Shown here piece after piece: positions 18,418 to 41,754 of a DNA stretch of 64,000 nt. Below the pieces are notes generated by a model. The model saw only the letters and a program-made list of their open reading frames with translations. It did not search any database and had not been told where the DNA came from. Within the stretch, counting starts at the first letter, position 1; each line of letters begins with the position of its first letter. The stretch is from Candidatus Nitrotoga sp. AM1P (lineage in GTDB: Bacteria > Pseudomonadota > Gammaproteobacteria > Burkholderiales > Gallionellaceae): positions 1,116,001-1,180,000 of the forward strand of contig NZ_AP019547.1 of NCBI RefSeq assembly GCF_013168275.1. The letters run 5' to 3'. The position numbers and the translations under genes were made by a program.

Positions 18418-18421
18418 GGCA

Positions 18422-23304: not shown

Positions 23305-23393
23305 GATCTCCAGTTAAATTCTGGATTCATGGTATGAGTCCTGTTATCCCGGATACCTCGCGCGTTCCTCGTACCGCTTTGTCAGGAGGAAAA

Positions 23394-24218: not shown

Positions 24219-24245
24219 GTCTATGAGAGAAAAGAGGGGGTATCT

Positions 24246-24656: not shown

Positions 24657-24720
24657 AAATAAAATTTTCCAAGTTTGTATAAAATGGCGAATAACAACAG
24701 TTTATTTTTTCATTTTTTTG

Positions 24721-24894
24721 GCGCATATCTTACGCGCACTATCAAAGCTTATTTTGTTGGCCCCGCCTGCATAATAGGATCATCGAATTGTACTGGATCG
24801 TCTTCCCAGCCGCAGATTGGACATATGTCCCTCGTTCTGAAAGCGTCATTTGCTTACAGCAGGGACACGCCATAAATTTTTTCACATCAGTCAT
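24721..24894 (-). pseudogene. Frameshifted cysteine-rich CPCC-domain protein
   Basis: Reading from ATG at 24894 gives MTDVKKFMACPCCKQMTLSE followed by RGTY, the start of a CPCC-family protein. The frame then breaks. Another frame continues ICPICGWEDDPVQFDDP, which is the expected second half, and a third gives ANKISFDSAR. Two small indels therefore separate recognisable family segments. The 300-bp stretch otherwise holds no gene. Confidence 0.65.
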
Positions 24895-24955
24895 TGCTTA
24901 TTTCAATAATTAATACCATCTCACGGCCTAAATAATAGTAAATATGAAAGTTATA

Positions 24956-25339
24956 TTAATCAATATTGCGCTCTTCGTTAGAAAAATCGTTCCAAGCTCT
25001 ACAATATTCGGTTGACTTATTACCTAATAAGTTAATGGTATTAAAATCAATTTTCTTTAAATCAATAGCCGTTATAAGTGCTTCCAAAAAACACGTTGCT
25101 AGCGCGTCTTTTACAGATGAATCGCCGTAAGTAAGGCCATTTTCTACAATTTCTAATGTGGCTTTTCGTTGTTCTATTGTTAAATCTGAGAAATTTTCTA
25201 CAAAATAGTTTACATAGCATAGAATATCATTGGAGATACCTGGATCTTCTTGCTCCCAATAATTTATATAGTCTTTCCAGCAAGAAGAAAAGGTAGGCGT
25301 CACAAGGATAAAATTTTTGATTATTTGATGTCTGTCCAT
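24956..25339 (-). CDS. Small acidic protein, probable immunity protein for the poly-Q secreted protein
   Basis: 127 residues, acidic and helical, without signal peptide. The C-terminal motif LGNKSTEYCRAWNDFSNEE resembles a family of small immunity-like proteins (I believe DUF7674, not verified). Its start lies only 5 bp after the stop of the secreted poly-Q gene. The order is toxin-like gene then small acidic gene on one strand, as in polymorphic toxin-immunity pairs. Toxin neutralisation is an inference from that layout. Base composition is more AT-rich than its neighbours. Confidence 0.6.
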   Translation of the reverse strand: MDRHQIIKNFILVTPTFSSCWKDYINYWEQEDPGISNDILCYVNYFVENFSDLTIEQRKATLEIVENGLTYGDSSVKDALATCFLEALITAIDLKKIDFNTINLLGNKSTEYCRAWNDFSNEERNID

Positions 25340-25344
25340 ATTTA

Positions 25345-26433
25345 TTATTTTCCAATAGCATCATTAAGATCTAGTAAAATTTGTTCTGTAGCGGCTTTGT
25401 CTTGTGCAGACGCATTTGGATTATTTCTTTTCCATCGTTCCAAAGATCGAATTGAATCTTCAGCCTTTTGGATATGCTGCCTTCCACCAACTGTTTGACC
25501 AGTATGTCTCTCAAACCGTACAGCATCAGCGGTACTTCCGCTACCAATCGCTGCGTTTTCTCTATATAAAGAATCAACAATTTGACTAAGCTGTGCATCA
25601 CTTACAGAAGGTTTAGCCATTCCACGCCGTAATTCAATTTTGTACTTTTCATGTAAAGCAGCGTTCTGTGCATTAGGAACCCTGGATGCACCTACAGAAT
25701 CTTCATGAAATCCTGTATTCTGTAGTCTGGCAAGTTGAGCTGATTCAAGGCGAGAGGTAATTGCTACCTTGCTTGTGGAAGACAGCAACAGGCTACGGAC
25801 ACTTTCGCTAATTTGGCTTTGCTTTTGTGTTGTCCATCTAGGTGCCTGCTGCTGCCTCTGGCGTGCGAGCCTAGCACTCAGTCCCGAGACGCGGGAGGCA
25901 GGAACAGTAAAAATACGCCCCTGAAATTTGATCAACGCACGCCCATCGGTTGTGACGCGACCGGTGAAGCCCCGCTGAATCTCTCCCGCCGTTAAAGGTC
26001 GAACCATCTTCGGAACGCCACCGGAAATAACCATTCCGGTTGGCTTCCCGCCTTGCATCGTTCCTAGCTTTCCCTGTTGTTGCAACTGTCGGCGCTGTTG
26101 CTCCGCCGCCTGCCGCTGTTGCTGTTGCTGCTGCTGCAGTTGCTGGCGCTGCTGCGCTTGCATCTGCTGTCGCTGTTGATCCTGCATTTGCTGACGTTGT
26201 TGCGCCTGCATCTGTTGACGCTGTTGATCCTGCATCTGCTGCCGCTGCTGCGCTTGTTGCTGTTGACGTTGCTGGTCTTGTTGCTGCTGACGTTGCTGCT
26301 CTTGTTGGCGCTGCTGCTGCGCTTGCTGTTGTTGCCAGTTGGACTGTGCAAACAGTGATCCGGAGGGCATTGCAATAGAAGCCAGTGCGCCAATGCAAAG
26401 CGCAAATATTGTGCGTCTCATGGTTCTGACCAT
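25345..26433 (-). CDS. Secreted poly-Gln protein with conserved-looking C-terminal domain (candidate polymorphic toxin)
   Basis: About 362 residues. A signal peptide (RTIFALCIGALASIAMPSGSLFAQ) is followed by an almost pure Gln/Arg tract with QQQRQQMQ-type repeats (about residues 35-120). A short linker domain contains RPLTAGEIQRGFTGRVTTDGRALIKFQGR, and a helical C-terminus contains DAVRFERHTGQTVGGRQHIQ and IRSLERWKRNNPNASAQD. A long low-complexity stalk carrying a C-terminal domain, with a small acidic gene 5 bp downstream, resembles toxin-immunity architecture. GGGGA at 8 nt favours the ATG at 26433. I cannot name the toxic activity. Confidence 0.7.
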   Translation of the reverse strand: MVRTMRRTIFALCIGALASIAMPSGSLFAQSNWQQQQAQQQRQQEQQRQQQQDQQRQQQQAQQRQQMQDQQRQQMQAQQRQQMQDQQRQQMQAQQRQQLQQQQQQQRQAAEQQRRQLQQQGKLGTMQGGKPTGMVISGGVPKMVRPLTAGEIQRGFTGRVTTDGRALIKFQGRIFTVPASRVSGLSARLARQRQQQAPRWTTQKQSQISESVRSLLLSSTSKVAITSRLESAQLARLQNTGFHEDSVGASRVPNAQNAALHEKYKIELRRGMAKPSVSDAQLSQIVDSLYRENAAIGSGSTADAVRFERHTGQTVGGRQHIQKAEDSIRSLERWKRNNPNASAQDKAATEQILLDLNDAIGK

Positions 26434-26466
26434 TTGCATTCCCCTCTAGATAAAAGGCGCTGGCTG

Positions 26467-27996
26467 CTAAAATCCCTCTTGGCAGGCCTGAAACTTGCCT
26501 CTGTTTTTTTCGATATTCATTATATTCATTGCAGTTTCTTTGAAATTTTTCGTAAGACCCTTTCGGTTGGCTTGTGACACGCGGGCATTGCTCAACCCAC
26601 CGGTGAAGCAGAGGCAGAAATCATTGGCCTTATAGCTGCTCGGGGCTGGATCTTTGAGGCATGCATTCATGATCGCGTCAGGTGCTGGCAGGGGTGCTTC
26701 GTCATTCTGAACATATGCCTTCAGATTCTTGGCGAACTGTTCGAGTCCTGGCGTCTTACATTGGTGCCGCTGCAAAAGCGCTTCGGTATCCTTCATGCCA
26801 GCCTCGAATGGATCGTTCGCGATAGGGGCTGGCGACATCAATAAGTTTGGGTTTTTTATGACTTGCGCCAGCAAGGCCAGTCCTCTCATCAAAGTCGCTC
26901 CGAATTCGGCTTGGCCGAGGTTAAAATGATCAGCGTCAGCCGCTGCCTTGAGTCCATCGACTTCTCGTTGAGTAAAATTGCTTTCACATATTGCTCGAAT
27001 ATTGTCAGCAATATTAATCAGATATTTTTTGGTCCAACTTTCGTTGGACGAAATATCATCGAACTTTCTGTTGTAGATATTTTCAATAATTTCCGGCATG
27101 GCATATGGTTTCAGAGTTGCCGCATTTGACGCGACGGTGGCCTTCTCGGCTACATTTTCTTCTGCCTCGGCCTTTGCATATTCGTCAGTTTTGTCTTCGA
27201 ATTCGGCTATTATTTTTTTGGCCGGTTCGAAACCGGATTCAACAGCTTTCTCGTATAAAGATCGTGCAAGCACCGGATCTGCTTCAATGCCCGGCACACC
27301 TTCGACATGAAGGTCGGCGAGATAGGCCAACGCGCCCCCATGGCTTTCTTGAGCAGCGTCAATGAGCTGCTCGATTGCATCCTCAATCCGGTCAGCTTTA
27401 AGGTACCCGCGCGCCAGCTGGAAACGCAAACGCGGCGTTTGCGGCTCGGCATTGACCGCCGCCTCGCAAACACGGATTACTGTTGGTGCATCAAGTATTT
27501 CGTCGGAGATGCCAACAGTGAAGGCTTCAGGGTCGTCTGGATGGGCAGCCAGCGCATCGCACTCCTGTATGATGTTTGGAGGTTTACTGGCCGAAGCGGA
27601 AGGCTGCGCTGCCGGAGATAGAACTGTTGACGGCGGAACTGGTGGTGCCAAGGCCTTAAGACGGTGTTCATAGTATATAACAAGACCCTGTTTATAGAAT
27701 TCAACCAGGCAGGCTGTCGTCTGGCACTGATCTCGTGCCTCGCACTCCTTTGTAAGTAAGTGCGCTCCCTCTTGATCGGGAGTACTATATTCGGCAAATA
27801 GAGATAGAAATGCATCGCCCAACTCTTTATGCAACATAGATAGTTCTGGCGAGGAAATGACCATTTTTTTTGTTTCCTCATTTGCTTGGGGGCAATCAAA
27901 ACTTAAAGCTTGTAATGGCTCAGCAACGAATACCAGGAGGACGGCAACGACTGCGGCAATTCGATAGATCGGAATGTACACGGCCCCTCCCGTCAT
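26467..27996 (-). CDS. Periplasmic Sel1/TPR-like repeat protein with LprI-like N-terminus
   Basis: About 509 residues from the ATG at 27996 (a longer frame starts at 28038). A signal peptide (IAAVVAVLLVFVAEPLQA) precedes a cysteine-containing segment like the DUF1311/LprI lysozyme-inhibitor family (FDCPQANEETKKMV...LSMLHKELGDAF...CLVEFYKQGL). The middle has TPR/Sel1-like repeats (RFQLARGYLKADRIEDAIEQL; ALAYLADLHVEG...ARSLYEKAVESG). A helical C-terminus with several cysteines follows. It lies 33 bp upstream of the poly-Q gene on the same strand and may help its stability or export. Confidence 0.7.
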   Translation of the reverse strand: MTGGAVYIPIYRIAAVVAVLLVFVAEPLQALSFDCPQANEETKKMVISSPELSMLHKELGDAFLSLFAEYSTPDQEGAHLLTKECEARDQCQTTACLVEFYKQGLVIYYEHRLKALAPPVPPSTVLSPAAQPSASASKPPNIIQECDALAAHPDDPEAFTVGISDEILDAPTVIRVCEAAVNAEPQTPRLRFQLARGYLKADRIEDAIEQLIDAAQESHGGALAYLADLHVEGVPGIEADPVLARSLYEKAVESGFEPAKKIIAEFEDKTDEYAKAEAEENVAEKATVASNAATLKPYAMPEIIENIYNRKFDDISSNESWTKKYLINIADNIRAICESNFTQREVDGLKAAADADHFNLGQAEFGATLMRGLALLAQVIKNPNLLMSPAPIANDPFEAGMKDTEALLQRHQCKTPGLEQFAKNLKAYVQNDEAPLPAPDAIMNACLKDPAPSSYKANDFCLCFTGGLSNARVSQANRKGLTKNFKETAMNIMNIEKNRGKFQACQEGF

Positions 27997-28038
27997 TATT
28001 TGATTGCAGCTTGGCATTTCCTTAGCGCTTAATGCCAA

Positions 28039-28690
28039 TCAGCATAAAGTAAAATGATAGCTATGTAGCATACTGGACAACATCTCCATTTGCTGGTGCT
28101 GCCGGATCGATACTATTTTCGACAAATCACGATACCGTTTTATGTTTTATAAGTGTATTTAGCTCTAAAGATATCGTCTGTGTGATTACGTACATAGCGA
28201 TACATCGTTATAGACAGAGCACAGTTGCTTTTTTTATATTCATCAATGTTTCTAAGATTAAGAAGAAGAAGAAGGATTTCGGGCAGTCTGGTAGACAGTT
28301 CGAATAAGTCGCGGTATATTTTCTATGCTGAATCATATTTTGCTTCGAACTGCAATCCTTGGCAAAAAGCTCAGGCCGAACGCTTCATGCACAATTAATA
28401 ATAGCCTCAGACACCTGACCTCCTTCAACAAACAAGGATGTGCTCTTTTGGCGAGGAATATCAAAAGACCAATGGCAACGCGGTCGTCATGTCGTGCGCC
28501 AGTATTTAAGGCAACCAAACTGTTCTCGCCTAGCGGAGACAAACGCAAAATGAAAGGAGATGCAAAAGTGAATAGCAAGAATAGACAAACATATCAATCA
28601 CACTGTCTGGACGCTGCCACTGAGCTTGTGTCTCAGCATAATGTTAACTCACACGACGCCGTCTCGATGTCTCTCTAGAAACCTTGGAGC
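28039..28690. other. Gene-poor region
   Basis: Only weak frames are present. A GTG at 28569 preceded by AAAGGAG would give a 36-residue peptide (VNSKNRQTYQSHCLDAATEL...), and a 117-codon frame from 28325 includes it. A short AAG microsatellite lies at about 28260-28275. I call no gene with confidence. Confidence 0.4.
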
Positions 28691-28936
28691 ATGAATCATG
28701 AAATTGATGCAAAGCTGATTGTTCAGGCTCTTCTACAACGGGAAGAGAGTGTAGACCTTCCTGCCGCTCTGCAAGATGCCGGTCAGCTAATATTAATTGA
28801 GGGCAGTATGGAAATGGTTTCTTATACCCTAACCGGGAACGACGAGGACATACGGCTTGCTTTCGGTTCCACAAGTTACGGCGCGGGACGAGCGATGAAT
28901 CGCCAGCAGGTGCTGCCCAACTGGGTTGGGAGGTGA
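28691..28936 (+). CDS. Small hypothetical protein
   Basis: 81 residues, soluble (KLIVQALLQREESVDLPAALQDAGQLILIEGSMEMVSYTLTG). Its stop codon lies beside the ribosome-binding site of the following membrane-protein gene, implying coupling. It is the first gene of a three-gene plus-strand cluster ending with an acetyltransferase. No family is recognised; the C-terminal 20 residues look disordered. Confidence 0.55.
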   Translation: MNHEIDAKLIVQALLQREESVDLPAALQDAGQLILIEGSMEMVSYTLTGNDEDIRLAFGSTSYGAGRAMNRQQVLPNWVGR

Positions 28937-28940
28937 CTGT

Positions 28941-29783
28941 TTGATAAGTATAAACACACGCGAGTTTATAATTAGGGCCATTGAAATACTGGTTACGATT
29001 CTAGCGACCTATTTTGCAGTATATCCCCTTCATGGAAAACCCGCTTTTATTATTGAAGTTCTTATCGTACCGGTGTTGGTGTTAGTGCTCTGCGAGTTAT
29101 TACACGCCAAATACGTAATAGTGCCTAAACTGGAAAATTACATCACCACACGTGACCGGGAAGAACAAACTAGACAGCAGCTAGAAAGATTACGCTTGCA
29201 AATGGAAAAAATGGCGGAGTGTTTATTATCCGGTGAGATTGCTCCGCGCCTTGTAAGCCTTATCATAAGGATGCTCGGACGTGCCAACGCACAAGTATCG
29301 GCTGCGGAGCTCGATGATGTATGGAACCAGTTGACCTGGTCCCTCAGCAAGACTTACTTTGCAACAAACTATATTAACTACGAGCATATGTACGGCAATA
29401 CACGCTCAAAGGCGATAATCGCCACCCAGCGCGCAAAAATGCTTGCAGAAGGAGTAACTGTCAGCAAGGTGTTTATCGTAAAAGATGAAGATGAAATCAA
29501 TTCAACAGAAGCGAAAAAAACTTTGGCATTACACCGCAACGAAGGTATTGTTGATCTTTTTTACATAGTAAAAACTGACATCAGCAATGTGCTCGGTGAA
29601 AAACTCACGATTACCGATGACAACTTAGATTTTGGTATCTTCGATGGCAGTGTAGTGTTATGTTGGCATTTCGACAAGAACAGAAAAATTAAAGGTGGTA
29701 AATTATTTTTCGGTGAGAATGAAGTGCGGCCTTACCGTGAATTTGCGAATCTTTTGAAGGCAGTTTCAAAAAAATGCCCGTGA
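28941..29783 (+). CDS. Membrane-anchored hypothetical protein with coiled coil and cytosolic domain
   Basis: About 280 residues from TTG at 28941, which follows GGGAGGTG at 28929-28935. Two membrane helices (about residues 8-25 and 33-50, TILATYFAVYP and VLIVPVLVLVLCELL) are followed by a coiled coil (RDREEQTRQQLERLRLQMEKMAE). A 150-residue alpha/beta cytosolic domain contains RAKMLAEGVTVSKVFIVKDEDE and FGIFDGSVVLCWHFD. The layout suggests a membrane-tethered sensor or effector. Its 3' end overlaps the acetyltransferase by 10 bp. The family is not recognised. Confidence 0.65.
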   Translation: MISINTREFIIRAIEILVTILATYFAVYPLHGKPAFIIEVLIVPVLVLVLCELLHAKYVIVPKLENYITTRDREEQTRQQLERLRLQMEKMAECLLSGEIAPRLVSLIIRMLGRANAQVSAAELDDVWNQLTWSLSKTYFATNYINYEHMYGNTRSKAIIATQRAKMLAEGVTVSKVFIVKDEDEINSTEAKKTLALHRNEGIVDLFYIVKTDISNVLGEKLTITDDNLDFGIFDGSVVLCWHFDKNRKIKGGKLFFGENEVRPYREFANLLKAVSKKCP

Positions 29784-30256
29784 TCAAGGTATCTTCTCTC
29801 ACTGACGCTGATGCAGCGGCAATCCGGTTATGGCCACCATATCCCGACTCGCTACAGGATCTCGATTATGCGCTTCGGGCTAATGGGTGGCTTGATCAAT
29901 TCCCAGACTCGCAGCAAACACGTCGTTTTTCCGCCTGGGATGGTGCACAATTGGTGGGCTTCTCGATTCTAACAAATATTACCTCAACGGACGCGGAGTT
30001 TTATATTGCGCTTCATCCGCAGCAAATCGGCCATGGAATCGGACGAGTCGTCATGCTGCGGACATTGGATATCGGTTTCACAGAGCTCAATCTGAAGCAT
30101 ATATATCTAAAAGTGCGCGATTGGCATCAGCGCGCTATAGCTCTCTATGAAAGCATCGGATTTAAAAAGACTGGCACCAGTATTGTCGAAATTCAGGGTA
30201 AGCCGGTGAATTTTGTGAACATGTGCATCAAAAGGCCAGACTTGACTAATCGTTAG
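29774..30256 (+). CDS. GNAT-family N-acetyltransferase
   Basis: 160 residues with a GNAT fold. The acetyl-CoA loop region is IALHPQQIGHGIGRVVMLRTLD, followed by LKHIYLKVRDWHQRAIALYESIGFKKTG, the classic strand-helix motif B. Substrate unknown. It overlaps the upstream membrane-anchored protein gene by 10 bp, so the two are translationally linked. Acetyltransferases next to small unknown genes can be toxins, but no antitoxin-like ribbon-helix-helix gene is adjacent. Confidence 0.85.
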   Translation: MPVIKVSSLTDADAAAIRLWPPYPDSLQDLDYALRANGWLDQFPDSQQTRRFSAWDGAQLVGFSILTNITSTDAEFYIALHPQQIGHGIGRVVMLRTLDIGFTELNLKHIYLKVRDWHQRAIALYESIGFKKTGTSIVEIQGKPVNFVNMCIKRPDLTNR

Positions 30257-30368
30257 ACAATGAAATCTAAAAAACGCGTTGTATTGCACAGACCTTCTCT
30301 AGCAATTGTTTCTCTTTTCGGTTAACACGACTCTCAGGTCGATTCCAAGAAAAAACGCCTGTATCGAA

Positions 30369-31916
30369 CTAAGTTATGTAGGGTGCCAACGGGCCGTTTG
30401 TATCATGATAAATGACGCGCTGTAACATCATCGGGTGATGACCGGCCCACAGAATAAGTTGCCGTTGCAGCCGGTCACTGCGCGCAAACTGGCGGGTGAT
30501 CTCATCGGGGGTGAGCAGGTCGTAGAGTTCAATCGTCTCAGACCGTCCTGATAATCCCTTGTCCTGTTGATCTTGGGCGACCTCGCCAATGCGTGCGACT
30601 TCCACCTGAGTTTTTCCAAGGCGCTTGGAAATATAATCCGTAGTAGTCAGGTCATTATTGCCAAAAAACTGCACGATCCCGGCATTGCCAGCGAAGGTTT
30701 CCCAGCGTTCTCCATAAAGGGCTTTACCTTGGCTCCAGTCCTGAAGAATGACCCAAAGCTTGACGCCGAATGAAGCGATGAGGCCGGAAGCCGTTTCCAG
30801 TTGCTTCATGTACCCCAGCACCGGAAATTCATCCAGGCAGATCAGTACAGGAGCGGGGGGTTTGGTTTTCTCCCGTTCCATTGCGTCGAGTAACTGATTG
30901 ACAAAAATCCGCATCCACCGCTTCGATATCTCGATGCGTGTTGCCGGAAAGCACAGGTAAATACTGACCCCGGCAGGATTGCTTTTCAGTTCTGCAAGAT
31001 CAAAATCATTCTCTTGCAGAACATTCCGAAAAGCTGTGTAGTCCAAAAACTTGATATGACGGTTCACCGTTGAATGGACGCCAGAAATCTCACCCTCGCT
31101 CTTGCCGTAAAAATCAAGGGCGGCGGCCATGATGGAACTGCCGATTTCCTCCGTTTCAGGATCGACTTCGAGCCGAGAAGCATTGTGCATCATCTCTTCA
31201 TAGAGAAGTGGCTTCGTGCTTCTCTTTTGCTTTTTGCTGCCGGGTTCGTCTTCCTCAGCAGGAGGAAGCCAGAGCGCTTTTTTGATGAGCGCCCTCACCG
31301 TAATAAGGTTTCTCCTGGATTTGTGCTGCGGTGCGGTCGCCACATGGACAATGACGCCTTCGATAAAATTTTTGGCGCTTTCATCCCAATGGGGATCTTT
31401 TTGATCGGCGGACTGAACGACGATGGATTCCGCAATCAGTGCAGCATCTTCAAGAAAGCTCTGGCTTTCTTTTGACAGCACGCTCATGGGATTGTAGGAA
31501 GCGCGGTATTTGGATACCCGTGCTGACCCATTCAAAAATGGATCGAGGACGTATATTTTTTGCCCCATCGTCTCCCGTCGCTGTGCAGTAATCTCGGCTA
31601 GTTCCCCTTTCGGATCGGTCGCAAGAATACTACCAGGATAGAACAGCAAATTACTGATTAACCCTACGGATTTTCCAGACCGCGATCCAGCGACAGTGAG
31701 AATATGCCTGTCATCCTCAATTCCGATCAAATGGGAATCAAGTGCACCAATCAGAACTTTCTTGCCCGGATTGTGAGGATCGTAGGTAAGCGATGCACTC
31801 ACTAGAATATCGTCGAGTTTCATCCAACGCGCCTGCGGTACCTTTTGCTGTCTCAGGAAGCGGGTACTATCGCCGCGTGGGACATCCTGCATGAATCGTT
31901 TTGAAAAATCATTCAT
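30369..31916 (-). CDS. VirD4/TraG-type coupling protein (short form)
   Basis: 515 residues from the ATG preceded by GGAG (a longer frame begins at 32006). Walker A GSRSGKS is at 77-83, Walker B CLDEFPVLG, with the typical ATDPKGELAEIT and VILQDWSQGKALYG segments. Coupling proteins are hexameric ATPases that bring the relaxase-DNA complex to a type IV secretion channel. This one lacks the N-terminal membrane helices of VirD4, a form seen in mobilizable elements. It is divergent from the mob operon across the hairpin array. Confidence 0.9.
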   Translation of the reverse strand: MNDFSKRFMQDVPRGDSTRFLRQQKVPQARWMKLDDILVSASLTYDPHNPGKKVLIGALDSHLIGIEDDRHILTVAGSRSGKSVGLISNLLFYPGSILATDPKGELAEITAQRRETMGQKIYVLDPFLNGSARVSKYRASYNPMSVLSKESQSFLEDAALIAESIVVQSADQKDPHWDESAKNFIEGVIVHVATAPQHKSRRNLITVRALIKKALWLPPAEEDEPGSKKQKRSTKPLLYEEMMHNASRLEVDPETEEIGSSIMAAALDFYGKSEGEISGVHSTVNRHIKFLDYTAFRNVLQENDFDLAELKSNPAGVSIYLCFPATRIEISKRWMRIFVNQLLDAMEREKTKPPAPVLICLDEFPVLGYMKQLETASGLIASFGVKLWVILQDWSQGKALYGERWETFAGNAGIVQFFGNNDLTTTDYISKRLGKTQVEVARIGEVAQDQQDKGLSGRSETIELYDLLTPDEITRQFARSDRLQRQLILWAGHHPMMLQRVIYHDTNGPLAPYIT

Positions 31917-32580
31917 TGCTGTGACTCCAAAATAATACGATGAAATCATCTTGGCATCACCCGTCAAGCATTCTCCTCCTGCAATCCTCGCCAGCGACAA
32001 CCGCACAGATCATTTTTTTCCTATCGCCCTCCCTGAAAATTGTGCTATTGCCTGAAAACAAATCGCATGATCAATAAAGAGAAGCGATTGATTTTTTAAA
32101 CAGTATTAATAAATCTTTAAATCCATTACAGCTAAACTTAAAGTATGGAAAAGTGCGAGCGAAGCGAGCACAAGGTGTGCGTGGTATTACCACGCCCACC
32201 TTGCGGGGGGATTTCCAGTCCCCCGCGGACCCCCCTCGGAACTTCCTGATCGACATCATCTTGTGGATGATGCCGCCTAGGGAAGTTGCAACGTTTCGCA
32301 GTTGCATTGCGACCAGAAGAGACTGCGGCTCTCCTCTGGACTCCATCGCGCAAAGGGCACTTCGTAGCCCCTTGCATCCTTCGACCAGGGCTTTCGCGCC
32401 CTTGGACCACGATCAGGGTTTTCGCACCCTGAACCACGACCGGTGTTTCGGCACCGGACCCCGACCAAAAGGAGATATCAGCTCTCCTTTTTGGAATTCC
32501 ATCGACCAGGAATAGCGCGTTCCTGGACTCGCGAGGAAAGAGCGAGGAGCCGGAAAGTCGCGCGGCTATATCGTGTGAAC
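31917..32580. other. Non-coding region between coupling-protein gene and mob operon; probable oriT region
   Basis: 664 bp without a convincing gene. An AT-rich 100 bp (32080-32150) is followed by the hairpin array at 32153-32546. Position directly upstream of a MobC-like gene and a relaxase is where nicking sites usually lie; I cannot identify the nic sequence. Confidence 0.55.
32153..32546. repeat. Array of 13 consecutive hairpins
   Basis: Successive stem-loops occupy almost every base: 32153-32171, 32172-32202 (12 bp paired with one mismatch), 32203-32226 (7 bp), 32240-32287 (7+7 bp), 32288-32305 (5 bp), 32313-32339, 32351-32374, 32387-32402, 32413-32432 (7 bp), 32440-32457 (6 bp), 32467-32491 (8 bp), 32506-32526 (7 bp) and 32528-32546. 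Several loops share TTTCG(C/G), i.e. GCGAAA on the minus strand, and the linkers between the central hairpins repeat GACCACGA. Stem sequences differ while loops and linkers are kept, which indicates selection for structure. Confidence 0.8.
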
Positions 32581-32928
32581 ATGACTGAACAACGGAAGAA
32601 AAAGCGTGCTGCGCCCATTTCTTTTCGCCCGCCCGAAGGGATGCGAGAAGAATTCCGGGCGCGCGTGCAAAACTCCGGCCTCTCCGTTAATGCCTACATA
32701 ACCGCTGCTGTCTTTGGCCAGGCTGCGCCGCGCGCGCCGCGCTCTCCTCCGCTGAATCAAAAAATGGTTGCAACGCTGCTCTCCCAAGCTGCTCGAATCA
32801 GCGACCGCCTGGAAATCGGCGTGCAGCGATCCTCTGCCGCAGAAGATGCGTTGAGCCTTCAAGAATGCCGCGCCGAACTTTCCGAGATCAGAAGCTGCCT
32901 GATGCTCGCCTTGGGGAGAACTCCATGA
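32581..32928 (+). CDS. mobC: MobC-like mobilization accessory protein
   Basis: 115 residues. A basic N-terminus (MTEQRKKKRAAPISFRPPEG) leads into a ribbon-helix-helix-like segment (SFRPPEGMREEFRARVQNSGLSVNAYITAAVFG) and a helical tail (KMVATLLSQAARISDRLEIG), the pattern of relaxosome accessory proteins that bind oriT and assist the relaxase. It overlaps the relaxase start by 4 bp. A diverged copy of its 3' half lies at 40443-40624. The upstream frame back to 32443 runs through the hairpin array and is unlikely to be translated. Confidence 0.8.
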   Translation: MTEQRKKKRAAPISFRPPEGMREEFRARVQNSGLSVNAYITAAVFGQAAPRAPRSPPLNQKMVATLLSQAARISDRLEIGVQRSSAAEDALSLQECRAELSEIRSCLMLALGRTP

Positions 32929-34526
32929 TCCCTTTTGCATCGCAGCGCGGCGGAGGTCAAGACCTTGCCACCCATCTCCTAAACGATTACGACAACGATA
33001 TGATCGAGGTGGCGTTTATCAGGGGTTCCATCGCACGAGATTTGCATGGCGCATTCAAGGAATGGGAAGTGCAGGCCGATACGCTCACGCGCTGCCGCAA
33101 ATATCTCTATAGCATGTCCATCAATCCTGACCCGGAGCAGGGGCCTCTAAGCCGCGACCAATACCTGGACTACATTAAGCGTACTGAAGACGCGCTGGGA
33201 TTGACAGAGCAACCACGCGCCGTTGTATTTCACATCAAACATGGCCGCGAGCATTGTCATGTAGTCTGGTCCCGTATCGATGCTGACCAACAGCGTGCAG
33301 TTCATATCGCTTTCGACCGTGACAAACTGATGCGCGTGACGCGAGGGTTCGCCCGCGATCATGGGCTTGACCTGCCAGCCGGGTACGACAAATCACGGAA
33401 AGCCGGACAGTTGTCACTCTACGATCAAGAACAACTGAGGCAGACGGGTTTGTCGAAGGCCGATCACATACAACAGGTCACTGAAGCTTGGCGGCATAGC
33501 GACGATGCCAGATCGTTTGTCCAGGCGTTGGCTGAGCGCGGCTATATTCTGGCGACCGGAAAGCGGCCCTACGTTCTTGTCGATTTATACGGAGGCAAGA
33601 ATGCGCTCTCCAAACTGATCGACGATAAATCGGTTCGTACAAAAGACATCCGCAATTTCCTTGAAAAGGAATTCCCGCCTGAATCGCTACCAACCGTTGA
33701 GGAAGCGCAGCAACTTGTGACGGCTCACCGGAAGATCGTTGAAAAATCAACCAAAGACAATCATTACGAAAACCAACTGGCAGAATTGAAACACAGCCAG
33801 CAGGAGCGGCGGCTCGCGGTGGAACAGGAGCGGAATACTCTCAAAGACAAGCAGCAGTTCATGCGACTTTCCCAGCAGTCAATTCATCGGACTGAGCGAG
33901 ACCAGCTGCGCGCAACCCATATTGCGACAATGAAAGCCATCAGGCTGGCGCGGTATGAAAACAGGCCAACCGGGCTTGCCGCGTTTCTCGGTAAGGTAAG
34001 CGGAATTATGTTTCTTCAGAAAAAAATACATCAGTATCAAGATGCCCGGAAAATCCGGGATCATCTTGGACAGCGGGATCAGCTAAAGGCAAAACAGGTT
34101 CAGGAGCAGAAGGGGCTGGATTTTCGCTTGAATCTTCAGGTGCGGGATATTGAACGTAAGGCCAAGGCTCTCGAAAAAATTGTAAAACGCGAGCTGGCTG
34201 CACTATCGCGGGACAACAAGCGGCATGAACGCGTTCGCGCCAGAGGCGACGATGGATCAATGCCGTCGCTGGCCCAAATTGCCGGGATCGACAACAAGAA
34301 GAGAGAAAGAACAGCGCCCGATTTGCTTAGGGCCTTTGATGAAGCAAAACAGCCCAGCCAAGATGGTGCGCCCGATCTCATGGCAGAGTTCAGGCGCGCA
34401 GCGAGCGAGCGCCAAGAGGGCGAAAACAGAAACGGTTCTGGCAGTAGTCTTGAGAATGCCCGACCGCCGGAAATTGAGCCTAGCGAGAAGCCACATAGGA
34501 ACCGTGGCCGGGATAGAGACTCATAA
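32925..34526 (+). CDS. Relaxase/mobilization nuclease (MOBP-like)
   Basis: 533 residues. The N-terminal relaxase domain (1-180) contains the strand motif YLYSMSINPDPE near residue 60 and the metal-binding histidine motif FHIKHGREHCHVVW (His106, His110, His112). Nicking at oriT and covalent 5' attachment through an N-terminal tyrosine are the expected chemistry; which tyrosine is used is not clear. The C-terminal 350 residues are a charged coiled coil (QQERRLAVEQERNTLKDKQQ) and a disordered tail. GGGGAG precedes the ATG, and the start overlaps mobC by 4 bp. With the coupling protein it makes the element mobilizable, but no channel genes are present. Confidence 0.9.
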   Translation: MIPFASQRGGGQDLATHLLNDYDNDMIEVAFIRGSIARDLHGAFKEWEVQADTLTRCRKYLYSMSINPDPEQGPLSRDQYLDYIKRTEDALGLTEQPRAVVFHIKHGREHCHVVWSRIDADQQRAVHIAFDRDKLMRVTRGFARDHGLDLPAGYDKSRKAGQLSLYDQEQLRQTGLSKADHIQQVTEAWRHSDDARSFVQALAERGYILATGKRPYVLVDLYGGKNALSKLIDDKSVRTKDIRNFLEKEFPPESLPTVEEAQQLVTAHRKIVEKSTKDNHYENQLAELKHSQQERRLAVEQERNTLKDKQQFMRLSQQSIHRTERDQLRATHIATMKAIRLARYENRPTGLAAFLGKVSGIMFLQKKIHQYQDARKIRDHLGQRDQLKAKQVQEQKGLDFRLNLQVRDIERKAKALEKIVKRELAALSRDNKRHERVRARGDDGSMPSLAQIAGIDNKKRERTAPDLLRAFDEAKQPSQDGAPDLMAEFRRAASERQEGENRNGSGSSLENARPPEIEPSEKPHRNRGRDRDS

Positions 34527-34652
34527 TGCGGGAATTTACACCATCCTGCACAATCGAAAAAATCGAGTAACATACACATTGGCAGCCCTGTCATAACACC
34601 AGGCCCAATAACATAAACCCACTACCGCTAGCAGCAACTTATGCCCATCACA

Positions 34653-36665
34653 TTATAGTCGCACGATCTGCCAAACGTCTTGATCTATGTTCGCCTCGAA
34701 CTTGGCAAATCTGATTTCGTGTACCGCAAAGCAAAGCAGGTGGGTCGGTCGCGAAAAACCGACGTAGACCATCTTCGCGGACTGTTTGGCTCGATTGTGC
34801 ATGGTGGCCGTTATGGCTTCTCCTTTCAATTGATTTACCAGGCGCTCTGACTCGTAGTTCCCGCCACCGCCTTTTTCGTAGAACGTCTCCATATATAAAG
34901 TAGCGGTATGGGTTTCGCCCTTGACGCTGTGCACCGTTGATACCTCCACGTCGAAGCCGTCGTACTGTAGAATATTGGCGGATTTCTTGGGTGCGACTGT
35001 CGCCGTTGAGGCGGAAGAACCGTTACTGTCATTAATGAAATTAGCGCTTTTGTTAACCGTGCAATCGAACTGCGAAAGATAGCCCGGCAAATGGTTTTTT
35101 ATATCTAGCAGTACCGCATTACCATTGCCACGTATAACGTCTAGGCACCACCCATATATTTTTTCTTCATACGTCTTCCAATAGTCGGGTTTTGTTTCCT
35201 TCAAAAATTCACACATTTTCCTTTTTGAATATGGGGCTCCGGTGATATCGGCAACCTCCTCCTCTCTCAGGATTCTAAGCAACGCGTTACTAATATTCTT
35301 CTCGATTGATGATAGCGTGCGATCTTCCTGGTTGTAGTGGAAAATGTAACTTTGGAGATTAGGTTGATCGATTTTCGGTTGCTGTTCGCTTCTTGAAAAG
35401 ACGGGATGGTAGTCGCATAAACGCAGTTTCCCGTCTTCCTTTTTCGTCGCCCACGCAACAGCTTTGTATCTATTGCGCGGGTTTGCAGGAATTTTTCCTT
35501 CGTCTACCAATGTTTTTATGATCGACGCAAAAAGGCAAATCACCTGTTCCTTTTTTGCGTCCGAAAATACTAGGAAATGCGGCTTGATCGCAACGTCACT
35601 ACCATCGGCGTTTTTCCGCCGCCCTTCAATTTGAAGAGGACTTACCGCAAAAGAGCCGACTACGTTGGCGAGCATGCGACTCAGACGGTAACTGCCATTC
35701 AATTGCAATACGGTCGCCCTGTCATTCCAAAAAGGCTGCGCCAAGGTTTCCTTTCCGTCGAAAATAGATTGGTTTTTGTCTCCAATCCTCTGATAAACGC
35801 AGGGGCTCGATCCCCCGTCAAAGAAAATGTCTTCCAAAAGACTGTGCTGGTGCTGCGCCATGTCCTGCATTTCGTCAACGAACACATGCATAAACCTTTT
35901 TTGGAGCATCACTTTGATCTGCGGGTTCTTTGCAGCAGAGGCGCTTGCTAGGAAATACGCATCGTCATAGCAAAGGTATCCACCCTTCAGCATGCTCAGC
36001 TTGAACTCGAAGATCCACTCGCAGACTTTAGTTTTTTCGTCGTCACTCCAGTCCGTGTAATTCACAGGTTTGGTATTTCCGCGCGGCTTTTTAAAATCGA
36101 TTTTTTTTCCGCCGTATTCGTCCGTTAGGTTCATTTTTCCGTTTACGAGCGACCAGCGTAAGTTCTTCGCGTTCAACATTAGGTAACGTTTAGCGTTCTT
36201 GCTTTCTTGGGCAGAAAAACCTGCGAGGTTAAAAGGCGGTTTGGAGAATTTCTGATTGTAGATGTCGTCGTCGATCCGCACAGGTGTTTTTTTGTACCTG
36301 TTTGTGAAGAACGGGATCGCAAGAAATTCGTTGACGAAGCTCTGGATCGTTCCTACGAAATTCGGGTGCTTGAAAAGGCTTGCGCAATGAGTTCCTATTT
36401 GCTCCCTTATCTCGTCTATTGCCGCATTGGTATGAGAAATGACCAAGATTCCAGAGCCGTCTTCGAACGGCAAGTGACGGTCCAGAATAAGGAGTTTGGC
36501 GAGCAGTGCGGTCGTTTTACCGCTGCCCGGCACGGCTTGCAAATCGACCGTGTCGAGGTTCCTGATAAATTCTCTGCGTTCCGAATCGAACGATTCGCCC
36601 GCATTCAAAAGAATACGTTCTGCGTAAGCGATATCCTCCTCCGAAACACTAAACGCCGCAGGCAT
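34653..36665 (-). CDS. gajB: Gabija protein GajB, UvrD-like helicase
   Basis: 670 residues of the superfamily 1 helicase fold. Walker A AVPGSGKT is at 44-51, Walker B FVDEMQDMAQHQ, motif III/IV QRIGDKNQSIFDG...NGSYR, and C-terminal motifs STVHSVKGETH and VYVGFSRPTHLL. In Gabija, GajB senses nucleic-acid ends and partners with the GajA nuclease to abort phage replication. It overlaps the 3' end of gajA by 17 bp, on the same strand, which is the standard gajAB order. Both reading frames are intact. Confidence 0.92.
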   Translation of the reverse strand: MPAAFSVSEEDIAYAERILLNAGESFDSERREFIRNLDTVDLQAVPGSGKTTALLAKLLILDRHLPFEDGSGILVISHTNAAIDEIREQIGTHCASLFKHPNFVGTIQSFVNEFLAIPFFTNRYKKTPVRIDDDIYNQKFSKPPFNLAGFSAQESKNAKRYLMLNAKNLRWSLVNGKMNLTDEYGGKKIDFKKPRGNTKPVNYTDWSDDEKTKVCEWIFEFKLSMLKGGYLCYDDAYFLASASAAKNPQIKVMLQKRFMHVFVDEMQDMAQHQHSLLEDIFFDGGSSPCVYQRIGDKNQSIFDGKETLAQPFWNDRATVLQLNGSYRLSRMLANVVGSFAVSPLQIEGRRKNADGSDVAIKPHFLVFSDAKKEQVICLFASIIKTLVDEGKIPANPRNRYKAVAWATKKEDGKLRLCDYHPVFSRSEQQPKIDQPNLQSYIFHYNQEDRTLSSIEKNISNALLRILREEEVADITGAPYSKRKMCEFLKETKPDYWKTYEEKIYGWCLDVIRGNGNAVLLDIKNHLPGYLSQFDCTVNKSANFINDSNGSSASTATVAPKKSANILQYDGFDVEVSTVHSVKGETHTATLYMETFYEKGGGGNYESERLVNQLKGEAITATMHNRAKQSAKMVYVGFSRPTHLLCFAVHEIRFAKFEANIDQDVWQIVRL

Positions 36666-38397
36666 ACTCGATGGCCTTCACAAGGTAGGCGACGTGCACG
36701 TCGGCTACCATTTTCGATTTATCCACCTTTCCGTCCGCGCACGCCTGCGCCAATCGGTTTGCGATTTCCGTCTTGGACAGCGACTTGTCTTTAAGTTTCC
36801 TGGCAAGGATAGCGTCGAAGTCCGCCCAGTCTGTTCCGCTGTGCACCTCCTTGACGATCCTCGCAAATTCGTCCCCGAATGCGGCGGATTTTGAAAGGCA
36901 ATATTCAAGCGTCCAATGAGGTGCGATGAATGACTGCACGGATTGGCCATCGTAGTTCGCGGCTTTGTTTGCCGTAGCCTTGACCAGCTTCGCCTTGTCG
37001 CCTGGGACGGGACCGTCTTCGTCAGTCGGATAGATATCTACATCCGTTACAACGGCGACGGGTTTAGAAAAAAATGGGGCATTTTTGCGCTTGAATATAT
37101 TCGCGTAGCGTATAAAGGCCAGGCAGCTCACGTTGATGACGGCCACGCCTTTTTCTGTCAAGTTGCAGCCGATCAGTTTCGCTAATTCCGGCAGTAGCAA
37201 TTCTTCCGACCAGCCTTCCACTAAGATCACACCCTTGGCGAAAAAAAGGTTCGACTTCGTGACATCAAGAAAGCGTTGGAGAAAAACATAATCGTCTTTC
37301 TTGAGTTCGGTATACTCGTCGCTCATTGGGAAAGCCTCGTCTCCGCTACAGATCACGAGATTCTTGAGTTCGAGTTTCGAACCGATGTTTGGGCTATGGG
37401 TTGTCATGATGAGCTGCACGCTGTGCTGCTTTTGGAATGTCTCGATGGCTTGCATCTGCGCCTGTGGATGCAAGTGCGCTTCCAGCTCCTCGATCAGCCC
37501 GAGCCGTATTCCAGTCCAGTTGTTTTTGTTCAAGTGCAACAGTTCGGATGCCATGAAAAGGCGGTTGAGCGTTCCAAGTCCCGGCCTGATTTCACCCTGA
37601 ATCGAGAGCTCCAATTTTTCCAACAGGCTCCTGAGCTGGCCTCGCTCCGTTACGGCTAAGCCTGTTTTCTTGCCGGGTTCGTAGAGCGACTGGATATAAG
37701 TGTCGATCTTATCTTTCAGTCCTTTGCCGTGCTGGTCTTTGATTTTAGCGCCTACGTTATTGTTGCCATCGAAATAGTTTTCGATAGACGAATTGAAATT
37801 TTTCAGCAATTCCATTAAAAGATGATCGTCGCCTCGGTTCTTGAACGCCTCGTGTCCAATGAGAATCTGTGAAAGCCGCGAATTTTTTCTCGCGATAAGT
37901 TCTTCTTCGGCATCCCTCAACGGCTTGAGATACGTGACTTTCAGATATTCTTTCGCTTCCGGGCTTAACTGTTTTCCGTCAGTGTCAGCTCCCGCGCGAA
38001 CTTCGTAGGGCAAAATCTGGCCAGAGACGACATTTTTCTTCACGTCAAGAATGAGACGAAGGGATGGTATGATGTTTTCTCCTACCGTCTCCCAGGAAAG
38101 GAATTCGGTAAAATTCTTCCCTTCGTCCGGTTCAATCCCCGACAGGACTAATTCAATCCTTAGCCTGCGTTGCGTGTTGTGGAAATCGTCGTTGTCGATT
38201 CTCGACCAGTCATAGCTATGTGTTTTTAACACGATTCGAATAGCGTCGATGATGGCGGATTTACCCGAATCATTTTCCCCGATAAGGACGTTTAGTCCGG
38301 AATTGAAATTCAGGTCGAGATGCGGCGTCTCCAGAGCGAATACGGCAGCGTTGCCGAATTTTCTGAAATTCCATAGCTTGAGATTGGAAAGGTGCAT
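36649..38397 (-). CDS. gajA: Gabija protein GajA, OLD-family ATPase/TOPRIM nuclease
   Basis: 582 residues from the ATG at 38397 (MHLSNLKLWNFRKFG, the usual OLD start); the frame is open to 38436. The N-terminal ABC-type ATPase has Walker A GENDSGKS (40-47) and Walker B LIEELEAHLHPQ. The C-terminal TOPRIM domain has VILVEGWSEELLLPEL and the DVD motif in VVTDVDIYP. GajA is a site-specific DNA nickase held inactive by NTPs and released during phage attack. Size matches characterised GajA (about 580 aa). It is the first gene of the gajAB operon. Confidence 0.93.
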   Translation of the reverse strand: MHLSNLKLWNFRKFGNAAVFALETPHLDLNFNSGLNVLIGENDSGKSAIIDAIRIVLKTHSYDWSRIDNDDFHNTQRRLRIELVLSGIEPDEGKNFTEFLSWETVGENIIPSLRLILDVKKNVVSGQILPYEVRAGADTDGKQLSPEAKEYLKVTYLKPLRDAEEELIARKNSRLSQILIGHEAFKNRGDDHLLMELLKNFNSSIENYFDGNNNVGAKIKDQHGKGLKDKIDTYIQSLYEPGKKTGLAVTERGQLRSLLEKLELSIQGEIRPGLGTLNRLFMASELLHLNKNNWTGIRLGLIEELEAHLHPQAQMQAIETFQKQHSVQLIMTTHSPNIGSKLELKNLVICSGDEAFPMSDEYTELKKDDYVFLQRFLDVTKSNLFFAKGVILVEGWSEELLLPELAKLIGCNLTEKGVAVINVSCLAFIRYANIFKRKNAPFFSKPVAVVTDVDIYPTDEDGPVPGDKAKLVKATANKAANYDGQSVQSFIAPHWTLEYCLSKSAAFGDEFARIVKEVHSGTDWADFDAILARKLKDKSLSKTEIANRLAQACADGKVDKSKMVADVHVAYLVKAIEYACGV

Positions 38398-38705
38398 GTC
38401 ATTTATTGAGTTTTTGTTCAACGTTCTTGGGATCATACGAAAACATGCTTACGGGTACTTTGCTCGCTGAATCGACGATATCAGATTGGTCCCATCGTTA
38501 CACCAATTGACCATTTTGGTGCTGATCTAAGCATGGAAAGGCGCATTTGTCCATTGCCTGACGGTATGCCGGTCCGAATAGGATGGCTCTGTGATTTTCC
38601 CGCACAGATAGCGCCAGATATCCCCGTAAAATTTGCATGCATTAACATCCCACTTGCGAAATGCCGTTGCGATAGATTTTTTGAGTCAGCACCTCAAATA
38701 GCGTC
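38398..38705. other. Gene-free gap between gajA and fic
   Basis: 308 bp with no convincing ORF, the probable promoter region of gajAB. No strong hairpin or repeat is seen. Confidence 0.4.
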
Positions 38706-40232
38706 CTACTTTCCATCTCCCATTAGGAGCTGGCCTAGAAATTTAGCAAAAGGAACGATGTCTCCCTCTGCGCTAGCCTTCTCCAATGTCCCCATGTAGT
38801 CGTTGCGCCGGGTCACGGGGATGACGGTCCATGGGTAGCCGCCCGATGCAAGCATCACGTTCATCAAGAAGCGGCCCATGCGCCCGTTTCCGTCAAAATA
38901 GGGGTGGATGTAGACAAAAATGAAGTGCCCCATGACAACACGAACAGCAGGCTCGGCTTCTTTTTCGAGAAGCTCGAAGAACGCGGGCATGAGTTCGCGT
39001 ACAGCGTCGCGATTGGGCGGAACGTGTGTCGAGCGACGGATAAAAACCGGGCCGCTGCGATAACCGGCAAGGTCGGCAGGACGAAGAAGGCCTGCAGTGA
39101 TGCTCGGTCCAAATAGCTCTCGATACCACGCTCCGTGATCGGCATTCGCGACGGTGCCTGCATTTTCATTGCTTAGGACTTTGCCAACGCTGTTCTTTAC
39201 ACGCTGGAAGGCCTGCCAGTAGCCACGGGCGGCAAGAGCATCTCGCTGGTTACGGTCCGTCTCAATGGAGTCGGGGTTCCAGTCTCCAGAACGAACTCGT
39301 TCAATCAGCTCTGCGCTGACCCGGTAGCCTTCAATGGAAAGTGAGTTGTAGGCGTCGATCGCGTAGACATCATCAACATGCTGAAGATACGTGGACTTGT
39401 CGGTTGGCCTTCCTGGCGGAACGGGAAAATACTCAAGAACGTCCTCCCTCATTTTTTGCCATATCATGGTCACCCTGTTCACATAAGGCGAAGTTTCACG
39501 TGAGCTAAGCGCCACATGTGGCAGACCCTTGAACGGGTCAACTTCGTTCACCGTGTATCCTGCAGCTCGCATCGTCTCAATAATGCTGTCTGCGATTGTG
39601 GTTCGGCCAATGTTGCGAAATGCCCCGGCCAGTCTTCCCGCAATCGTGCTGTGCCCGCCTTCAAGCAAGCGGACAAGAACTTCGGACGCGTCAGTGATCG
39701 CAGCCAGAGCAGCGCGCATGACGATAGGCTGCGCAGTGAAATGTGTTGGCGAGGTCGCAATGAGACCGGCAGGAAGACTGAAAACACGCATGCCGCTATT
39801 GGTTTCAATATCCAGCGGCGGAGGCGTAGCCAGTCGAACATCGAATATCGAGGTCTCGTAGGGAAGGGATAGGGGCTTGTTGCCGCCTTTCGGTGAGCGG
39901 ACAATCACTTGTTTCGGCACCGTCCAATCGCCGGCAAATAGGGTCATTGACTGTTCAGGACTAAGGCACCAGTCGTCGCCGAAGCGTTCGTTTAGATAGT
40001 CGGCGCAGAATGTCCAGAAAGACGAATACCAAGCTGTACTTTCACCCGGCACTTCGTCGGGGCGGGTGGGTATGTACCAGCCCCTCATGACCTCGCGGAT
40101 GAAGCCGTTCTTGAGCAGTCGCTGCCTGTGTGTACGAGTTATTTGACTCGTTCGGATGGCCACGATCCCTTGATCCTGAAGCCTTTTAAGGGCTTCGAGG
40201 GAGGCGGCGAGGCTTTCGGATGGTGATGCCAT
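38706..40232 (-). CDS. Fic-domain protein with N-terminal AbiEi-like region
   Basis: 508 residues. The C-terminal Fic core has HPYFDGNGRMGR (443-454), the full HxFx(D/E)GNGRxxR AMPylation motif. An inhibitory helix motif SLSIEG (Ser297...Glu301-Gly302) before the core makes this a class II Fic with built-in autoinhibition. The N-terminal 200 residues (LQDQGIVAIRTSQITRTHRQRLLKNGFIREVMRGWYIP) look like the winged-helix region of AbiEi-type regulators, suggesting DNA binding and autoregulation. The gene starts directly next to a 24-bp tandem repeat array, a possible operator. Confidence 0.88.
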   Translation of the reverse strand: MASPSESLAASLEALKRLQDQGIVAIRTSQITRTHRQRLLKNGFIREVMRGWYIPTRPDEVPGESTAWYSSFWTFCADYLNERFGDDWCLSPEQSMTLFAGDWTVPKQVIVRSPKGGNKPLSLPYETSIFDVRLATPPPLDIETNSGMRVFSLPAGLIATSPTHFTAQPIVMRAALAAITDASEVLVRLLEGGHSTIAGRLAGAFRNIGRTTIADSIIETMRAAGYTVNEVDPFKGLPHVALSSRETSPYVNRVTMIWQKMREDVLEYFPVPPGRPTDKSTYLQHVDDVYAIDAYNSLSIEGYRVSAELIERVRSGDWNPDSIETDRNQRDALAARGYWQAFQRVKNSVGKVLSNENAGTVANADHGAWYRELFGPSITAGLLRPADLAGYRSGPVFIRRSTHVPPNRDAVRELMPAFFELLEKEAEPAVRVVMGHFIFVYIHPYFDGNGRMGRFLMNVMLASGGYPWTVIPVTRRNDYMGTLEKASAEGDIVPFAKFLGQLLMGDGK

Positions 40233-40251
40233 GATCGTTTCTGCGTTATTT

Positions 40252-40414: not shown

Positions 40415-40442
40415 TTATGGGCATTCAGACACATAGAGCCAA

Positions 40443-41638: not shown

Positions 41639-41754
41639 ACTTGTGAGTCAAACAACGACCCCTAAAAATGGAACGTGACAATTCTGGCGAATATTGGCGG
41701 CGCTTGACGAGTGAGGGCGGGCACAATATCAATAAAAAAAGCTGCTTAACTTGG

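Follow-up and report, generated by a model that had tools for sequence, protein, structure and literature searches.

A conserved row of hairpins beside a predicted nic site: a candidate composite oriT upstream of a mobC-relaxase operon

Immediately upstream of a mobC-relaxase operon in Candidatus Nitrotoga sp. AM1P, 13 successive hairpins of at least 5 bp fill positions 32153-32546 of the 64,000-nucleotide stretch of DNA that we analysed (hereafter the window, which belongs to a 3.0-Mb chromosome). Such arrays occur upstream of related relaxase genes in Pseudomonas, Halomonas, Variovorax and many Alphaproteobacteria, and several asymmetries favour the minus strand as the one that folds. We favour a reading in which the locus is a composite oriT, with the hairpin that we call H1 carrying the nic site and the rest of the array forming a region of the transferred strand (T-strand) that resembles a single-strand origin (sso); nicking and priming are both what we infer, and we put the probability of this reading at about one half.

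A row of hairpins and its conservation

The 13 hairpins were obtained with a span-limited fold of the minus strand using DNA parameters; with RNA parameters there are 12, the weak last hairpin (5 bp) being absent and some neighbours fusing into longer stems (Table 1). We compared the interval 32148-32575 with 100 dinucleotide shuffles, using both parameter sets on both strands. The z-scores were -6.65 (RNA parameters, plus strand), -5.98 (RNA, minus), -6.47 (DNA, plus) and -7.29 (DNA, minus), and for each strand and parameter set none of the 100 shuffles folded as well as the native sequence. An initial annotation, made from the letters and a list of open reading frames, had described a 394-bp run of 13 stem-loops and had proposed to fold both strands against shuffled controls; its hairpin count is borne out with DNA parameters, and the folding lies about 6-7 standard deviations below the shuffles. 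It had also noticed that several loops keep TTTCG, and four loops do carry this sequence on the plus strand, the corresponding minus-strand loops reading GCGAAA, GCGAAA, CCGAAA and TGCGAAAC; a fifth loop reads ACTTCGTA. Only part of the repeated linker that it described survives: the full linkers GACCACGA (32405-32412) and AACCACGA (32432-32439) occur once each, and only the part ACCACGA is found twice.

Table 1 Features of the array and of the surrounding island, in window coordinates
Feature	Position	Strand	Remarks
Probable island	7737..41799		bounded by 25-bp tRNA-Asn 3'-end repeats
Tyrosine integrase ORF	7782-8852	-	beside tRNA
VirD4/TraG coupling protein	30369..31919	-	divergent; predicted leading side; start codon uncertain
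H0	32153..32171	-	small hairpin GTGC..GCAC; far side of predicted nic
Predicted nic	32170..32171	-	between the opposite bases; inferred from CA[CT]CTTG^[CT] and published nic sites
H1	32171..32203	-	nic-type inverted repeat; 32172-32202 in the DNA-parameter fold
H2	32203..32226	-	GGGGG..CCCCC hairpin; adjoins H1
H3	32241..32286	-	long hairpin, 17-18 bp with internal loops; DNA-parameter fold
H4	32287..32306	-	GCAAC..GTTGC; loop with CGAAA
H5	32313..32339	-	fold and alignment
H6	32350..32375	-	GCAAGGGGC..GCCCTTTGC; G.T wobble on minus (A.C on plus)
H7	32385..32405	-	loop GCGAAA; DNA-parameter fold
H8	32413..32432	-	loop GCGAAA; DNA-parameter fold
H9	32440..32457	-	loop CCGAAA; DNA-parameter fold
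H10	32465..32494	-	relatives have G.T variants of the stem; DNA-parameter fold 32467-32491
H11	32506..32526	-	DNA-parameter fold
H12	32528..32546	-	last, weak, 5 bp; DNA parameters only
-10-like hexamer TATATC	32567..32572	+	probable leaderless mobC promoter, 8 nt before mobC start
MobC/NikA-like relaxosome protein	32581..32928	+	115 aa; PF21983, below Pfam cut-off
Relaxase, MOBP-like	32925..34526	+	PF03432, E 4e-15

A search of plasmid DNA with the array returned two records from S. meliloti, in which 33% of the query is matched at 81% identity; on pSymB of S. meliloti strain ml21 this match lies upstream of mobC and of a relaxase gene whose product is 48% identical to that of the window. Genome contigs were then scanned with both relaxases, and the best 80 of 85 relatives, together with the window and L002, gave 82 loci. 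H1 was found by its motif in 57 of these loci (55 distinct upstream sequences), a plus-strand match being accepted if it had at most three mismatches and lay 400-1000 nt upstream of the relaxase, and a relaxed search for a CAAG..CTTG hairpin found it in 12 of the remaining 25, which brings the total to 69 of 82. The near symmetry of H1 means that its reverse fits the pattern too; the plus form matched better than the reverse in 55 loci, equally well in one and worse in one (L034). Among the 13 loci without H1, five end at a contig edge 181-787 nt upstream of the relaxase, and two share one upstream region that folds strongly (z -8.2). The other six have enough upstream DNA and no H1. Five of these (L044, L045, L048, L049 and L082) show 38-42% identity and the sixth, L079, shows 53% over 178 residues, so that the absence of H1 is not only a matter of distance; five of the six, L079 included, are without strong folding, and only L048 has a segment below z -3.

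All 57 H1 loci have at least one 200-nt segment centred between H1 and mobC with a z-score of -3.3 or lower (25 shuffles per segment, plus strand, RNA parameters), compared with a control of mobC coding DNA in which 106 of 114 segments lie above z -2 (median -0.3). We relied on shuffled z-scores since helix counts in 1100-nt folds, judged by eye, did not set arrays apart from ordinary DNA. Predicted hairpins of at least 6 bp number 4-18 per array (median 10) in 61 regions (56 of the 57 H1 loci, L085 and four plasmid regions), and part of these raw counts is background: arrays have 2.57 per 100 nt, against 1.83 for shuffles and 1.90 for mobC coding DNA. The density of each array exceeds that of its own shuffles in all 61 regions.

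The element is sporadic, as expected of mobile DNA. In a search that made no use of the relaxase, the exact H1 pattern occurred four times among 398 Pseudomonadota genomes (in the window, L085, L084 and L086), and L085 combines a complete array with a relaxase that is 43% identical across 235 residues. Among 158 genomes of the family to which the window belongs only its own genome matched, and the array DNA likewise matched only its own genome among 41 (its own and 40 relatives) and had no match among phages; viral contigs held neither relaxase relatives nor the H1 pattern. As a separate observation, L084 has only H1 and H2 (around position 1500), with the only PF03432 match of that genome about 10 kb away, and L086 has only H1 (also around position 1500), with the two PF03432 matches of its genome on other contigs; these may be degenerate copies or oriTs that work in trans. 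We also examined five of 11 further plasmid records that had a relaxase match, the five relaxases being 31-35% identical, by inspection and without shuffles. A similar hairpin ending GGCTTG^C (the caret marks the nick here and below) is present in L092, L093 and L094, rows of hairpins with CGAA loops are present in L090, L093 and L094, and L091 shows no obvious array.

Individual hairpins can be followed across loci to different extents. H2 is visible in a 44-locus alignment (more weakly in L072) and in the orphan copy L084, the stem of H4 is GCAGCG..CGCTGC in some relatives, and H0 was recognised in relatives by eye only (Pseudomonas, betaproteobacteria and Micavibrio). For the analysis of pairing we aligned the minus strands of 11 of the 57 loci (A3; the window, Pseudomonas, Micavibrio and betaproteobacteria) and of 10 others (A4; alphaproteobacteria); H8 is a gap in the 10 other sequences of A3. 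RNAalifold produced long-range helices when no span limit was set; a limit of 90 was then applied in a second fold of A3 and in that of A4. The pair table of a further alignment, A2, was left out because MAFFT had displaced two H1 subgroups by one base. In the span-limited consensus structures 96.5% (A3) and 95.8% (A4) of cells hold standard pairs. The number of pairs changed on both sides is 6 in A3, against a shuffle mean of 2.8 (7 of 500 shuffles reach it), and 14 in A4, in which some hairpins are poorly aligned, against a mean of 7.4 (0 of 500); further pair types show no excess over shuffles (90 of 500 in A3, 208 of 500 in A4). When partners were slid by 1-3 columns pairing was only 40-53%, and double changes numbered 0-4 in A3 and 2-7 in A4, a control that is biased towards the consensus structures because these derive from the same alignments. 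The initial annotation had proposed selection on structure and had named homologues that keep the sequence and lose the stems as the finding that would speak against it; what we observe is the opposite, with stems kept while the sequence changes.

A predicted nic site and the strand favoured for folding

Read on the minus strand, the inverted repeat H1 ends in CA[CT]CTTG; in the window CAAG (32171-32174) pairs with CTTG (32200-32203), and the minus strand reads ...CGCACACCTTG^TGC. The base that follows the minus-strand CTTG is a pyrimidine in all 68 H1 copies that bear CTTG: T in 49 and C in 7 of the loci found by motif (56 of 57, L034 having lost CTTG from H1), and T in 7 and C in 5 of the 12 relaxed matches. 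The H1 arm on the plus strand likewise finishes with CTTG, after which the next base is C in 29 and G in 23 of the 52 copies parsed, so that the orientation of H1 rests on the following base together with the layout of the locus. For MOBP systems a nick consensus (C/T)ATCCTG(C/T) with an inverted repeat just 5' has been described (PMC3772185), and published nic sites include CTTG^CA, TGCTTG^CCA (typed P7) and RYGCTTG^C (PMC7755788). The motif CA[CT]CTTG^[CT] differs from YATCCTG^Y by one or two bases, which is a resemblance of sequence only. Judged by sequence, the inverted repeat of H1, the adjacent CTTG^[CT] motif and the non-coding position ahead of relaxosome and relaxase genes are what a MOBP-type oriT would be expected to show.

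From the following pyrimidine and the published nic sites we assign the predicted nic to the minus strand, at the junction of the bases that face 32171 and 32170. With nic on this strand the T-strand would lead leftwards, the relaxase gene would enter late and the array would be the 3'-terminal part, while H0 would form the first T-strand bases. CAAG and CTTG are both present in 56 of 57 H1 copies, and the 3' end predicted to result from nicking is base-paired. Like the array, MOBP-type oriTs (RP4, tfs4) and the sites nicked after CTTG (pRS01, Tn1549, pRJ6) have an inverted repeat directly 5' of a conserved nic motif, in an intergenic position ahead of relaxosome genes; the difference is that here the stem reaches the predicted nic through CAAG and CTTG and that more hairpins follow on the T-strand. 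We note that in two loci, L013 (5178-5280) and L014 (5219-5320), both on the minus strand, the H1 stem appears by eye to have been extended by an insert able to re-form pairs, and that both extended stems close with CGAAG on the minus strand.

The strand was approached independently through wobble pairs. We searched the part of the array that follows H1, treating both strands alike, for stems that are Watson-Crick paired except for one internal mismatch, and found 28 unique hairpins with G.T on the minus strand (A.C on the plus) against 3 with G.T on the plus strand; the 28 are not independent, as many of them are stems in which a purine run switches A to G. Locus by locus, 30 favour the minus strand, 2 favour the plus strand and 25 are equal, compared with 5 and 7 in mobC coding DNA. 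Alignment cells that deviate from a Watson-Crick majority pair are G.T rather than A.C on the minus strand by 32 to 12 (A3) and 36 to 9 (A4), and the wobble position of H6 is G.U in 10 of 11 aligned loci. Loops are asymmetric too, with CGAA in 134 of 628 minus-strand loops and TTCG in none. Calculated stability behaves differently under the two parameter sets. With DNA parameters the advantage of the minus strand (kcal/mol per 100 nt) has a mean of -0.93 in arrays and -1.00 in mobC coding DNA, and 45 against 46 of 56 loci favour that strand, which is no excess over the control; with RNA parameters the advantage is -3.57 against -1.90, in 50 against 39 loci. Taken together the asymmetry favours the minus strand, by itself without distinguishing DNA from RNA, and this is the strand on which the T-strand is predicted from nic.

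Candidate roles of the array

In the composite oriT that we favour, H1 would be the target of the neighbouring MOBP-like relaxase, which would cut the minus strand at CACCTTG^T. The T-strand would then be the minus strand and would lead to the left, towards VirD4, with the relaxase gene, mobC and the array entering last; sequence and layout support these two steps. In a third step the array, as the last ~375 nt of the T-strand, would be under selection in its single-stranded minus-strand form, which is supported by covariation and strand asymmetry, the energies making no separation between DNA and RNA. The fourth step, suggested by position and architecture, is priming. Most likely the array would be sso- or ssi-like: exposed when transfer is nearly complete, it would fold and recruit host RNA polymerase, primase or some reader of its NCGAAR loops, and the recruited activity would start the complementary strand in the recipient. 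A complex oriT and a single-stranded initiation region were both among the possibilities raised by the initial annotation, and both gain support from the nic-type hairpin at the left end, upstream of mobC and the relaxase gene, from the strand asymmetry and from conservation in many relaxase loci.

The sso of most rolling-circle plasmids sits upstream of the nick and turns single-stranded only once leading-strand synthesis is nearly finished (PMC4595007). ICEBs1 sso1 acts in one orientation and promotes stable acquisition in recipients, and a plasmid sso rebuilt with other sequence and the same structure still worked (PMC4595007). Given the predicted nic, the array would likewise lie upstream of the nick on the displaced strand. 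It is this sso-like position, together with the strand preference, that leads us to prefer the sso-like reading. The ssos of rolling-circle plasmids and ICEBs1, to which we liken the array, are folded single-stranded DNA that acts in one orientation and in which structure may matter more than sequence; sso1 differs in having three stem-loops and in lying downstream of oriT, whereas the array has about ten and is predicted to lie upstream of the nick. To our knowledge the known ssos have few hairpins; about ten is unusual for an sso and could hinder translocation. It is a tentative and somewhat doubtful proposition that the arrays make up a new class of sso, with about ten (4-18) T-strand hairpins sharing the NCGAAR loop, forming part of the T-strand 3' end in a widespread family of mobilizable islands and plasmids and read by an as yet unnamed factor. 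In the boldest form of the idea, the blunt, self-paired 3' end of H1 could prime its own complement with the array as first template; a nick that left a CTTG-3'OH fully paired with CAAG makes such self-priming conceivable, and self-priming is described for the terminal repeat of AAV (PMC5714925).

Two other kinds of known element invite comparison. Frpo and ssi promoters are, as is proposed for the array, folded T-strand DNA, and on a conjugative element they can start RNA synthesis (PMC11541004); those described lie in the leading region and have -35/-10 elements, whereas the array is on the predicted trailing side and a strict sigma-70 scan of 31900-32750 in the window found no promoter-like site on either strand. 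On these two grounds the array does not fit a Frpo-type single-stranded promoter. In IncU RA3 and PromA plasmids, as here, a mobC-relaxase operon has an oriT and several inverted repeats upstream (PMC4175270). There nic has been mapped 50 nt upstream of the predicted mobC transcription start, the inverted repeats are a handful, and the descriptions consulted mention no such array (PMC4175270). A search of the literature, mostly outside subscription papers and preprints, returned neither a description of such hairpin arrays nor one of the oriTs of this element family. Whereas oriTs and ssos are known kinds of element, an oriT fused with a modular array of about ten T-strand hairpins whose loops share a sequence, and conserved across this relaxase family, is unreported in the literature searched. 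As far as we know, the conversion of single-stranded to double-stranded DNA of Gram-negative integrative elements in diverse recipients is poorly understood. A conserved, easily recognised array beside nic would offer a defined object for testing it, and would be a strong signature for oriT and transfer direction in this element family.

The T-strand hairpins could serve the relaxosome or termination in place of priming, a role that shares the first three steps with the composite oriT, differs from it in the fourth only, and that we hold to be unlikely. The hairpins would slow or mark the end of the T-strand for re-joining at H1, or would dock MobC, the relaxase or VirD4. That MobC and VirD4 are encoded nearby, that the array begins beside the predicted nic in 44 aligned loci and that the CGAA loop is common all fit such a role; against it, accounts of the RP4 and tfs4 oriTs give a single short inverted repeat plus nic (PMC3772185), and a hairpin number of 4-18 is odd for a fixed docking site.

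The asymmetries would also fit a stand-alone structured RNA made by minus-strand transcription through the array, perhaps acting as a sponge for a protein through its NCGAAR loops, since the wobbles are G.U-like on that strand and the excess stability appears with RNA and not DNA parameters. We think this improbable. The promoter scan of the window was negative, it likewise showed no terminator-like site on the minus strand to the left of H1, and it would be fortuitous for an RNA element to stop precisely at a DNA nic site. With Rfam 15 the only match in the window at gathering score is the tRNA-Asn, and the best matches of a permissive search of 32050-32700 have E values of at least 1.5, below gathering scores. 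The nearest credible gene to the left is on the plus strand in 30 loci and on the minus strand in 26 (56 loci); with orientation so mixed the array does not serve as a shared leader for genes on that side, and a leader for a left-hand minus-strand gene was rejected for this reason. A structured RNA, the third possibility offered by the initial annotation, is further disfavoured by the apparent start of the mobC transcript to the right of the array. For a recombination role, which that annotation also named, no support emerged from these analyses. In 32 of 35 group-A loci, those with a parsed mobC start (the ATG being chosen by its distance from the relaxase), a hexamer beginning with TA ends 5-8 nt before the ATG in 28, against a background that averages 3.5% and reaches 15.6% at the highest offset, and only 4 of the 32 have a Shine-Dalgarno-like motif, so that mobC is apparently leaderless.

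In our estimation it is very unlikely that the inverted repeats act as double-stranded binding sites for MobC or another regulator and fold only incidentally. There is precedent in RA3, where an RHH MobC binds an imperfect palindrome near oriT (PMC4175270); double-stranded palindromes would not be expected to show the strand asymmetry seen in mismatches and loop sequences, and the stems differ from each other, so that no common operator is seen. The array directly upstream of the operon folds well as plus-strand RNA (z -6.65), but a plus-strand mRNA leader regulating mobC and the relaxase gene through their 5' UTR is scarcely credible, given that the TA hexamers and the scarcity of Shine-Dalgarno-like motifs argue for a leaderless start right of the array and that the wobbles are on the other strand.

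The carrier element and its relaxase

The 25-bp tRNA-Asn end is repeated at 7737, 41775 and 55417, and the mobC and relaxase genes overlap by ATGA. VirB4, the only mating-pore gene sought, had no family match in the genome. With integrase, att repeats, relaxase and VirD4 present and no VirB4 match, we read the element as mobilizable and not self-transmissible; the carrier is probably a ~34-kb integrative and mobilizable element at tRNA-Asn. Beside this island lies a second stretch (41775-55441) bounded by copies of the same tRNA-Asn end, and there are possibly two islands in tandem at one att site.

MOBP relaxases have a catalytic tyrosine in motif I. Over the N-terminal ~58 alignment columns of the relaxase relatives no tyrosine is conserved in more than 40% of rows, and the NCBIfam model TraI_MobP matches the relaxase with E 5.8e-6, below its cut-off, so that we call the relaxase MOBP-like only. 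His17 is present in 85 of 86 aligned relatives (window 32925-33500). MobM has a histidine nucleophile, and the array-linked relaxase may represent another histidine relaxase family. MOB-suite gives mixed types: MOBQ for the S. meliloti record, MOBP for L090, L092, L093 and L094, and no relaxase type for L091.

Directly downstream of the relaxase gene lies a Gabija defence pair (34653-38436, minus strand) consisting of a GajB-like UvrD helicase (E 7e-257) and a GajA-like ATPase/TOPRIM protein (E 6e-209); the S. meliloti relative has AbiE-type genes downstream of its relaxase gene. Beside the pair a Fic-domain protein (PF02661; 38706-40232, minus strand) gives a partial match to SoFic (E 1e-20), and an ORF at 40231-40467 on the plus strand consists largely of repeated FLGYRVNL units.
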